Below, piece after piece: positions 18,576-22,321 of a stretch of 37,067 nucleotides of DNA. The stretch comes from Acidobacteria bacterium RIFCSPLOWO2_02_FULL_61_28. GTDB lineage: Bacteria > Acidobacteriota > Terriglobia > 2-12-FULL-54-10. The position numbers and the translations under genes are program-made. The stretch covers positions 91,685 to 128,751 of the forward strand of contig MEKR01000164.1 of NCBI GenBank assembly GCA_001767035.1, written 5' to 3'. The notes beneath the pieces are model-generated. The model had not been told where the DNA came from. It ran no database searches and saw nothing but the letters and a program-made list of their open reading frames with translations. Each line of letters begins with the position of its first letter. The stretch's first letter is position 1.

Positions 18576-18576
18576 G

Positions 18577-18694
18577 ATGCCACAGAGACACCGAGGAAAG
18601 AAGGAAGTCGGAAGTCAGGAGTCAGAATGGGACTGCGAATGCTTTTCTTCTGGCTTCTGAATTCTTCTTCTGTGTCTCCGTGCCCCTGTGGGCA
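18577..18694. repeat. Imperfect inverted repeat GCCACAGAGACACCGAGG ... TGTGTCTCCGTGCCCCTGTGGGC with AGTCAGGAGTCAGA heptamer-like repeats
   Basis: Direct inspection of the uvrA 3' intergenic region. Confidence 0.55.
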
Positions 18695-18709
18695 ATGAGG
18701 AAGTAAACG

Positions 18710-18814
18710 ATGCTGAAACCAGGAACCTTTCTGGGCCATTACGAAATCCTTGCGCTGCTCGGCGTGGGTGGCATGGACAAGGCGTTCCGCGCGCTGGTGA
18801 TGGAGAAGCATTAG
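18710..18814 (+). pseudogene. Ser/Thr protein kinase N-terminal stump
   Basis: 34-aa ORF MLKPGTFLGHYEILALLGVGGMDKAFRALVMEKH*; matches kinase N-terminus through the Gly-rich loop (GxGGM), then diverges and stops. Confidence 0.65.
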
Positions 18815-18845
18815 AGTTTGTCCGGAGGCGGTATAATCGTTTGCC

Positions 18846-21380
18846 ATGCCGACCAAGGTTGCCATCCCCGTTACCATCAGGGAACCAGCGTGGAGTGTGC
18901 CCCCTGAACGGGATATTCTTGAACATGTGGATTTTTACCGGCAAGACGCCTCCCGGAAGCTTGACAAGCGCAGGCGGGCCGAAATGGGACAGTTCCTCAC
19001 CCCTGCACCGGTTGCACGCATTATGGCAGGCATGTTCCAAAGTCCGCGCGAAACCGTCCGGCTACTCGATGCCGGAGCTGGCGTCGGTTCCTTGACAGCC
19101 GCCTGGATTAGCTGGGTCTGCAGCCGAGAGAATCGCCCTCGGAAGGTCTCGGTTACGGCGTTTGAGATAGACCCAATCCTTTCTGAATACCTAGCATCTA
19201 CCCTTGAAATGTGCCGCCGCCGTTGCGAAGAGATCGGCATCAGCTTCACGTCCGAACTCGTGCAAGAGGATTTTGTCAAGATGGCCGTTGACCAACTCCG
19301 CGCTCCTCTTTTTAGGCAGTCGGCAGAGGGCTATGATTGTGCCATTCTCAATCCACCCTACCGGAAAATCAACTCCGAATCCGAAATTAGACTAGCACTC
19401 AGGCTTGTTGATATCGAGACCAGTAACCTGTACGCAGCGTTCCTTGCTTTGGTTTCACGGCTTTTGCGGCCAAGCGGCGAATTGGTTGCAATCACACCAA
19501 GGAGTTTCTGCAATGGCCCGTACTTCCGTCCCTTCCGGGAGATGTTCTTGTCTCTGATGGCTCTCAAGCGAATCCATGTTTTCGAATCTCGCAAGCGGGC
19601 CTTCAAGGACGACGATGTGCTTCAGGAAAACGTTATCTTTCATGCGATCCGTGGGGGGGCCAAGGACGGTGCCGTTACGATTGCCTCTAGCACAGGTCCT
19701 GGTGACGAACTGCCCACCTTAAGGGACGTTCCATACTCTCAAGTCGTCTCTCCCCTCGACCCCGATTCCTTCATTCACATCGTCCCGGACGACATTGGTC
19801 AGCAGATTGCTGAGCAGATGGCTCACTTTGCAACTTCTCTCGAAGAACTCGGCATAAGTGTCTCAACTGGTCGTGTCGTTGACTTTCGGGCTGCCAAGTA
19901 CCTACGCGCCAACCCCTCCGACAACACCGCGCCTCTTATCTATCCACACCACCTGTCGAATGGATTCGTTTCTTGGCCGAAGCATCACGCAAAGAAACCG
20001 AACGCGGTTCTTATCGCTCCCGCTACGATTGATTCCCTTGTCCCTTCGGGGACTTATGTTCTCGTAAAACGTTTTTCCGCTAAAGAGGAGCGCCGGAGGA
20101 TTGTTGCTGCAATTTTTGACCCGAAGAAATTGCAAGCAGACCTTCTTGCTTTTGAGAATCACCTTAACTACTACCACAAGGATGGAGAAGGTCTTCCGGG
20201 AAAGCTGGCTTCCGGTCTGGCGGTTTTTCTCAATTCAACTCTCGTGGACTTATACTTCCGGAATTTCAATGGTCACACCCAGGTCAATGCCGCCGACCTC
20301 CGAATGCTACGCTATCCGCCGAGAGAAGAGTTGGAACGTCTCGGTTCGAGGATAGGCGACTCCCTTCCGCACCAAGACGAGATTGACCGTCTGATACATG
20401 ACGAACTTATGCCAAAAAACCTAAACATCCCAAACCCAGTCGAGGCAAAAAAGAAGATCGAACAGGCGCTGGAGATTCTCAAAGTGTTAGGGTTCCCCCG
20501 TCAACAACACAACGAGCGCTCTGCCCTCACATTGCTTGCTTTGCTTGACCTCAAACCCAGAGACTACTGGTCTGATGCAAACAATCCGCTTCGGGGAATT
20601 ACCCAGATGCTGGACTTCTTTGCGGAGCATTATGGTAAGCGTTACGCTCCAAACTCCCGCGAGACGGTCCGACGCCAAACCGTTCACCAATTCAGACAAG
20701 CAGGACTGATCCTTGAAAACCCTGACAACCCGTCACGACCAACCAACAGCGGCCAGACGGTTTACCAGATCGAGCCTAGTTCCCTCCAGGTGTTGCGCAC
20801 CTACGCCACTGACGGATGGATCACTGCTCTCAAGGGCTACCTTTCAGCCTCGGAAACGCTGGCAACCCGCTACGCCCAACACCGTGAGATGCAGAAAATA
20901 CCTCTTCAGATAAAAGAGGGTCATGTCGTTGCACTCTCACCCGGTGGACAGAACGTGTTGATTGAGAAAATTATTCCGGAGTTCTGTCCTCGGTTCACGC
21001 CGGGAGGGAAGGTGATCTATGTCGGGGACACTGCCGATAAGTTCGCATATTTCGACAAGGAAGCGCTTGCAGATCTCGGTGTCGAAGTGGACGAACACGG
21101 CAAGATGCCGGATGTGGTGATTCACCATGTAGAGAAAGACTGGCTGGTACTCATCGAGGCAGTCACAAGCCACGGCCCCGTGAATCCGAAGCGACACAAT
21201 GAGCTCAAGGAGCTTTTCCGAGAGTCCAGGATTGGACTTGTTTTCGTCACAGCCTTCCTGACGCGCCGGGATATGATCAAGTACCTGGGCGAAATCGCTT
21301 GGGAAACCGAAGTGTGGGTCGCGGAGACGCCGACCCATTTGATCCACTTCAACGGAGAGCGATTCTTGGGGCCGTATTGA
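18846..21380 (+). CDS. Fused type II restriction-modification protein: Eco57I/PstI-like N6-adenine methyltransferase plus BsuBI/PstI-family endonuclease
   Basis: AEMGQFLTPAPVARIMAGMF, LLDAGAGVGSLTAAW, NPPY (19350-19361); C-terminus KMPDVVIHHVEKDWLVLIEAVTSHGPVNPKRHNELKELFRESRIGLVFVTAFLTRRDMIKYLGEIAWETEVWVAETPTHLIHFNGERFLGPY is BsuBI/PstI-type. Confidence 0.92.
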   Translation: MPTKVAIPVTIREPAWSVPPERDILEHVDFYRQDASRKLDKRRRAEMGQFLTPAPVARIMAGMFQSPRETVRLLDAGAGVGSLTAAWISWVCSRENRPRKVSVTAFEIDPILSEYLASTLEMCRRRCEEIGISFTSELVQEDFVKMAVDQLRAPLFRQSAEGYDCAILNPPYRKINSESEIRLALRLVDIETSNLYAAFLALVSRLLRPSGELVAITPRSFCNGPYFRPFREMFLSLMALKRIHVFESRKRAFKDDDVLQENVIFHAIRGGAKDGAVTIASSTGPGDELPTLRDVPYSQVVSPLDPDSFIHIVPDDIGQQIAEQMAHFATSLEELGISVSTGRVVDFRAAKYLRANPSDNTAPLIYPHHLSNGFVSWPKHHAKKPNAVLIAPATIDSLVPSGTYVLVKRFSAKEERRRIVAAIFDPKKLQADLLAFENHLNYYHKDGEGLPGKLASGLAVFLNSTLVDLYFRNFNGHTQVNAADLRMLRYPPREELERLGSRIGDSLPHQDEIDRLIHDELMPKNLNIPNPVEAKKKIEQALEILKVLGFPRQQHNERSALTLLALLDLKPRDYWSDANNPLRGITQMLDFFAEHYGKRYAPNSRETVRRQTVHQFRQAGLILENPDNPSRPTNSGQTVYQIEPSSLQVLRTYATDGWITALKGYLSASETLATRYAQHREMQKIPLQIKEGHVVALSPGGQNVLIEKIIPEFCPRFTPGGKVIYVGDTADKFAYFDKEALADLGVEVDEHGKMPDVVIHHVEKDWLVLIEAVTSHGPVNPKRHNELKELFRESRIGLVFVTAFLTRRDMIKYLGEIAWETEVWVAETPTHLIHFNGERFLGPY

Positions 21381-21399
21381 ACACCACAGGCTGTCCTCG

Positions 21400-21578
21400 G
21401 CCGGTTATCTTAGAATGGCCAGAGCGCCCTGGGCGGCAGCTCTTGGCATCACGGGACCGGCAGGAGCGGGCCGGGCCGGTGGCGGTTTCGAGTGGGCGAT
21501 TATCGCATCCGCTTCGATATCGAGGGCCGGCTGCTCCTTTTCTACCGCGTCTGTCACCGGCGGGAAGTGTATGAATAA
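21400..21578 (+). pseudogene. RelE/ParE-family toxin C-terminal remnant, frameshifted
   Basis: Frame 1 ARAPWAAALGITGPAGAGR, then after shift WRFRVGDYRIRFDIEGRLLLFYRVCHRREVYE*; GGGCC duplicated at 21468-21477. Confidence 0.75.
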
Positions 21579-21768
21579 AGCAGTGAGGAGTGAGAAGTGA
21601 CGAGTGACGAGCGAATCGGAGCCGCCCTTCGGCTTACGCTCAGGGCCGTGAGCGACAGTCGAACGGCGACCGTCAGCGAGCGGCAGGGTAGAAGTCAGGG
21701 CGAGGAGTCAGAAGTGTGGATAGATTCGTGCCTTTCCGGGTAGATAATGGAGTTGTGAGGGGTCAGCC

Positions 21769-22011
21769 ATGCTGAGGAACTACATTCAAGCAGCGATGCG
21801 GCAAGCGCGATACGAAATTCTGCCGGACGACGGAACCTACTATGGAGAAATCCCCGGATTTGAAGGGGTCTATGCCAACGCGGACAAACTGGAAGCTTGC
21901 CGGGAGGAGTTGGAGGAGGTTCTGGAAGAGTGGTTGCTGCTGGGAATCTCGCGCAACCACCCGCTGCCGGTCGTGGATGGGATTGAGTTGACGATTAAAG
22001 AGACCGTGTAA
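21769..22011 (+). CDS. hicB: HicB-family antitoxin
   Basis: MRQARYEILPDDGTYYGEIPGFEGVYANADKLEACREELEEVLEEWLLLGISRNHPLPVVDG; HicB-like; stop overlaps downstream ATG (TAATG). Confidence 0.85.
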   Translation: MLRNYIQAAMRQARYEILPDDGTYYGEIPGFEGVYANADKLEACREELEEVLEEWLLLGISRNHPLPVVDGIELTIKETV

Positions 22012-22230
22012 TGCCTCGTCTTGGTCCCATTGGCCGTGAGGACCTGATTTTCTATTTGAAAACGACTTGGATTTGAGGGTCCGTATTCCGGCGGGAAGCA
22101 TCCATTCATGGTCAGAGGTAATTCCCGCCTCGCAATTCCCAATCCTCACCGGAAAGAAATCGGAATCTCTCTGGTCAGTCGCATTCTCCGGCAAGCAGGA
22201 ATTGACAAGGGCGAGTGGGAGGAATTGTGA
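22011..22230 (+). pseudogene. hicA: HicA-family toxin with single-nucleotide (+1) frameshift
   Basis: Removing one A from AAAA (22059-22062) gives MPRLGPIGREDLIFYLKRLGFEGPYSGGKHPFMVRGNSRLAIPNPHRKEIGISLVSRILRQAGIDKGEWEEL* (72 aa), a complete HicA. Confidence 0.88.
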
Positions 22231-22257
22231 AACCGGGAGGGGTTGTCAACGAATCGC

Positions 22258-22293
22258 GGGAAAGCAGATCCTTCGCTGCGCTCAGGATGACAG
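22258..22293. repeat. Intergenic repeat (HPERSEGS-type) copy
   Basis: GGGAAAGCAGATCCTTCGCTGCGCTCAGGATGACAG; reverse translation gives CHPERSEGSAFP; homologous to the copy inside uvrA. Confidence 0.85.
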
Positions 22294-22321
22294 CACTCGG
22301 GGTGCAGCCCGGTAAAAACGC

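Follow-up and report, generated by a model that had tools for sequence, protein, structure and literature searches.

The window, a stretch of 37,067 nucleotides, was found to contain one uninterrupted open reading frame of 844 amino acids (18846–21380, + strand) in which a PstI/BsuBI-type methylase is fused to its nuclease. The gene is best explained as a PstI/EcoGIII-like Type II restriction-modification system in which the tandem methylase (M) and endonuclease (R) genes were joined in frame, probably with two products (probability about 0.7). This explanation was built on the reading frame, domains, motifs, homology, start-codon position, Shine-Dalgarno enrichment and genomic insertion, and it predicts activity, specificity, dimerization and internal initiation. 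The M half would methylate adenine in a site that is probably CTGCAG, and the R half, with its own helix-turn-helix recognition domain, would act as a dimer and cut that site when it is unmethylated. A start codon at the joint would give a second product, a free endonuclease of 323 amino acids in the window's copy, beside the full M-R protein.

An intact fused gene with all key motifs in place had been proposed in a sequence-only reading of this DNA, and the analysis bore out both points. The M half (aa 24–521, 18915–20408; all coordinates are on the + strand) matched Eco57I (aa 147–251) and N6_Mtase (aa 42–215). The SAM-binding motif I, LLDAGAGVGSLTAA (aa 73–86, 19062–19103), precedes the catalytic motif IV, NPPY (aa 169–172, 19350–19361), the order of an Eco57I-like N6-adenine methylase, which this half is predicted to be. 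D75, G77, G79 and G81 of motif I were invariant across 53 aligned fused relatives, and so was NPPY. The R half (20409–21380) was covered over its full length by the helix-turn-helix domain BsuBI_PstI_RE_N (PF17728; aa 535–673, 20448–20864; E 4e-50, 169.7 bits) and the catalytic domain BsuBI_PstI_RE (PF06616; aa 686–838, 20901–21359; E 7e-62, 207.9 bits), against a cut-off of 27 bits. D728, P755-D756 (21108–21113) and E771 (21156–21158) are common to SdaI, the EcoGIII endonuclease and the fused set; they appear to supply the retained acidic residues of a putative PD-(D/E)XK-type core.

The AlphaFold2 model of the fused protein had a mean pLDDT of 87.4. The two halves join in a coil between helices 510–521 and 531–547. 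Residues 1–21 formed a low-confidence region, and homologues align to the protein from about aa 23–24 onward. Foldseek matched the M half to M.BseCI, CamA and M.TaqI, and the R half to SdaI. The sequence TATAAT at 18832–18837, 8 nt upstream of the start codon, is a possible −10 box and suggests a leaderless or very short-leader mRNA. A single copy of the gene was found in the host genome. Among the neighbors tested, none was recognized as a separate M, S or C gene, in line with the sequence-only reading.

The joint lies where the endonuclease gene begins in split systems, and in the window it carries an in-frame ATG (Met522, 20409–20411), placed in coil in the model. This start-codon position is conserved in the family. 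Among 69 dereplicated fused loci, the junction start codon was ATG in 59, TTG in 8 and GTG in 2, and it was followed by A, T or S in 48. At each locus, the start codon closest to a set position was taken, within a window of 11 codons; random 11-codon windows of the same genes give ATG at a rate of 18% and any start codon at 45%. Methionine occupied the junction in 86% of the loci; over the eight positions downstream no residue exceeded 33%, and the two positions just before reached 13% and 26%. The mean Shine-Dalgarno energy at the junction was −6.5 kcal/mol, against −4.35 in synonymous shuffles drawn by each gene's own codon usage (p 2e-8); for 994 other internal ATGs the mean was −2.16. This excess held for representatives below 65, 60 and 55% identity (at 55%, n = 21, p 4e-4). 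Synonymous shuffles were, in addition, more structured than the actual junctions (p 1.5e-4). Two further fused loci of the window's class lie outside the set: one (L195) has TTG in the usual place with CAGGAGAT upstream, and in the other (L196) the in-frame ATG lies further downstream than usual. These patterns are most simply read as retention of the endonuclease's own translation start inside fused genes. Since the start codon, usually with a strong Shine-Dalgarno sequence, is kept at the joint, most family members probably make free endonuclease besides the M-R fusion. It is reasonably likely that selection keeps the R start, so that one gene yields both M-R and free R while the boundary between one gene and two switches freely.

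Alternatively, the gene may encode a strict Type IIC enzyme, of which only the full-length M-R protein is made, with the junction Met a relic of the old gene boundary. This is an unlikely account of a family in which the start codon and Shine-Dalgarno sequence are kept though the surrounding linker varies. The 10 non-ATG cases carry TTG or GTG in the same place; their codon-usage shares multiply to 2.5e-7, a value inflated by picking the codon as a start codon. An assembly model for Type IIC proteins has been published (PMC12707154), an artificial Eco29kI R-M fusion was active as one chain (PMC3039593), and the window's copy itself lacks a Shine-Dalgarno sequence at the junction (pairing 0 kcal/mol), all of which agree with a strict Type IIC enzyme. 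The junction start codons could also be partly relics of repeated, recent fusions, because fused and split forms have switched several times. The window's junction site stood at the 89th percentile of openness relative to the rest of the gene, and was not more open than synonymous shuffles. With an ATG that lacks a Shine-Dalgarno sequence, internal initiation is less certain in the window than for the family, and the chances of it in the window's own gene are about even. The earlier description of a single-polypeptide system stands as far as the single reading frame is concerned; a single product is not established, since the family keeps a junction start codon, usually with a Shine-Dalgarno sequence.

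The M-R fusion as such is already known: the PADLOC profile PDLC03359, of 840 positions, matches the protein from aa 23 to 844 (E 1.8e-276). Seven full-length fused matches were found in six of 396 same-phylum genomes, including the window's, plus several split pairs. A profile scan of genome contigs gave mostly fused loci, which were over-sampled because these hits were ranked. At the first stage, 78 of the 157 loci were open through both halves. The 69 loci of the fused set fall under about 14 phylum-level names, which include Acidobacteria, Myxococcaceae, Chloroflexi, cyanobacteria, Gemmatimonadetes, Planctomycetota, Bacteroidetes and Proteobacteria; many family loci come from metagenome assemblies. 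With this spread and an existing profile, the earlier view of the fusion as unusual is not supported. Carriers in culture include Pyxidicoccus fallax (L041) and Myxococcus xanthus AM003 (L045), and L063 and L043 are fused relatives with a strong Shine-Dalgarno sequence. A sequencing or assembly accident as its source was rejected, given the 78 open loci, several of them from isolates.

The fused and split states needed six changes on a tree of 56 representatives (6–7 in bootstraps), at least four of them forced by well-supported branches. A single origin of the fusion with one fused clade was rejected (AU p 1.3e-8, for a sampled tree in which ranked hits favor fused loci). On this phylogeny, fused and split forms are taken to have interconverted several times. 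In split relatives the start of R and the stop of M often overlap by 4 bp, and a small indel is then enough to fuse the two genes or part them. Other arrangements were also observed. In L022 and L024, a BsuBI/PstI-like endonuclease adjoins an apparent cytosine-5 methylase (DLFAGCGG), not an adenine methylase. In four viral contigs (L120, L125, L129 and L154), M and R lie on opposite strands, and these form one clade outside the tandem forms.

Among relatives whose methylome has been published, the split EcoGIII system, which recognizes CTGCAG, is the closest. The R half is 59.3% identical to the EcoGIII endonuclease and 43.7% to SdaI, and the M half is 47% identical to the EcoGIII methylase. 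An EcoGIII-type locus (L158) shares 99.8% DNA identity with those of E. coli 95JB1 and 95NR1, strains in which CTGCAG sites are 100% m6A (PMC6602927). R.EcoGIII was reported to be active (PMC3893438). PstI-like specificity, considered in the sequence-only reading, is plausible for the window's system on these identities. The CTGCAG site noted earlier inside the gene (19118–19123) is real, and one site per 2.5 kb is unremarkable. In 346 kb of the host, CTGCAG was seen 31 times against 99 expected (O/E 0.31), which ranks it 7th of 64 palindromes. In three relatives where no copy was detected, O/E was 0.46–0.74, so the site is depleted there too, less strongly. The host depletion only weakly supports a CTGCAG target, since depletion in the family extends to many palindromes. 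Within the window alone, counts of CTGCAG were uninformative (5 seen, 9.2 expected).

SdaI, the only relative with a solved structure, is an endonuclease that cuts an 8-bp target. PstI, with a 6-bp target, is related to SbfI, with an 8-bp one (PMC4081073), and the same anatomy might serve another or longer target, such as CCTGCAGG as in SdaI/SbfI. This seems improbable for the window's system, whose R half is closer to EcoGIII than to SdaI and whose host is depleted in CTGCAG itself. The host counts of CCTGCAGG (6 seen, 4.6 expected) were too few to test an SdaI-like site. The depletion of CTGCAG also speaks against the view that the gene is an orphan methylase whose endonuclease tail is dead or unused. 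Several fused relatives (L037, L042, L077 and L098) have a stop inside the R half with the M half open, a possible decay to orphan methylases. The window's copy, however, has an R half of full length in which all 47 positions common to SdaI, the EcoGIII endonuclease and nearly all of the fused set are retained, and an orphan methylase is very improbable there. Separately, CAGCTG was almost absent from the host sample (L175–L194 plus the window; 4 seen, 86 expected) and was also depleted in three relatives, which suggests another long-standing restriction pressure.

In four genomes of the same family, uvrA adjoins a GSU2086-like gene. In the window, about 3.7 kb (18576–22321) lies between them and holds the fused gene, a UPF0150/HicB-like gene and toxin-like remnants. 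The G+C content is 51–54% in the fused gene and about 61% around it. The insertion between uvrA and its neighbor, together with the drop in G+C, makes horizontal acquisition of the fused gene probable. The gap between uvrA and the GSU2086-like gene may be a hotspot. Positions 21769–22230 carry the 80-aa UPF0150/HicB-like gene and then a HicA-like piece of 40 aa, below the Pfam cut-off and by appearance truncated or frameshifted. A 28-aa piece at 21492–21578 is similar, by a weak Pfam match (E 0.023), to the C-terminal end of a toxin-antitoxin toxin of the ParE/RelE type and is probably a remnant. A 34-aa ORF at 18710–18814 (HYEILALLGVGGM) resembles a cut-short N-terminus of a Ser/Thr protein kinase; it had no Pfam match.

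How a new host survives the entry of such a fusion had been raised as a question, and for Type IIC proteins a proposal already exists: methylase monomers act before nuclease dimers form (recent review, PMC12707154). A strict Type IIC enzyme would enter in just this way, with monomeric M active before R dimerizes. If the internal start is used, survival would also depend on how much M-R is made relative to free R. In that case an internal ribosome-binding site would determine the proportion of methylase to nuclease, which would offer a direct way to study how these systems spare a newly entered host, and annotation pipelines would be mislabeling fused genes as single-chain enzymes. Oliveira et al. 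2014 (PMC4176335) reported close similarity to two-gene systems for only 0.9% of Type IIC systems, and no natural Type IIP M-R fusion, or internal start in one, was found in the open literature searched. Such joining of two-gene Type II systems has been described as rare; the PstI-like family provides many natural examples beside split relatives.

Compared with known systems, the window's gene shares both enzymes and the M-then-R order with EcoGIII, a PstI-like system borne on Stx phages whose CTGCAG sites are methylated in vivo (PMC6602927, PMC3893438). M.EcoGIII and R.EcoGIII are encoded by two genes overlapping by ATGA, whereas the window has a single ORF. SdaI (PDB 2ixs) aligns with the R half over its full length, and its chain of 323 aa equals the length of the predicted internal-start product. 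SdaI is a stand-alone protein, while the R half of the window is fused to a methylase. The Foldseek match to SdaI had poor overall superposition (TMt 0.48, rmsd 15), so the domain arrangement either differs from that of SdaI or is poorly modelled.

Type IIC/IIG enzymes (Eco57I, MmeI, BpuSI) likewise have R and M in one ORF, with the same methylase class. Their usual layout is an N-terminal R with one shared specificity module, and most are R then M (PMC4081073); the window's gene instead places M at the N-terminus, and its R half supplies a separate helix-turn-helix domain for recognition. Type IIC enzymes hold both activities in one polypeptide; here one ORF was seen, and its internal start may give free R. 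Two products from one defense gene by an internal in-frame start are known for McrB-L/McrB-S and Cas8b/Cas11b (PMC12707154, PMC11899642). Those proteins are unrelated to the fused R-M, and their short products were demonstrated, while here the short product is predicted from genes. An internal start codon with an initiation signal is conserved in the family, and the window has the start codon without a Shine-Dalgarno sequence. The artificial Eco29kI fusion joins head-to-tail Type IIP genes in one chain, as in the window, and the same paper lists BsuBI among natural fusion candidates (PMC3039593). The Eco29kI fusion was engineered with R first, whereas the window's fusion is natural, with M first and the start codon kept at the joint.
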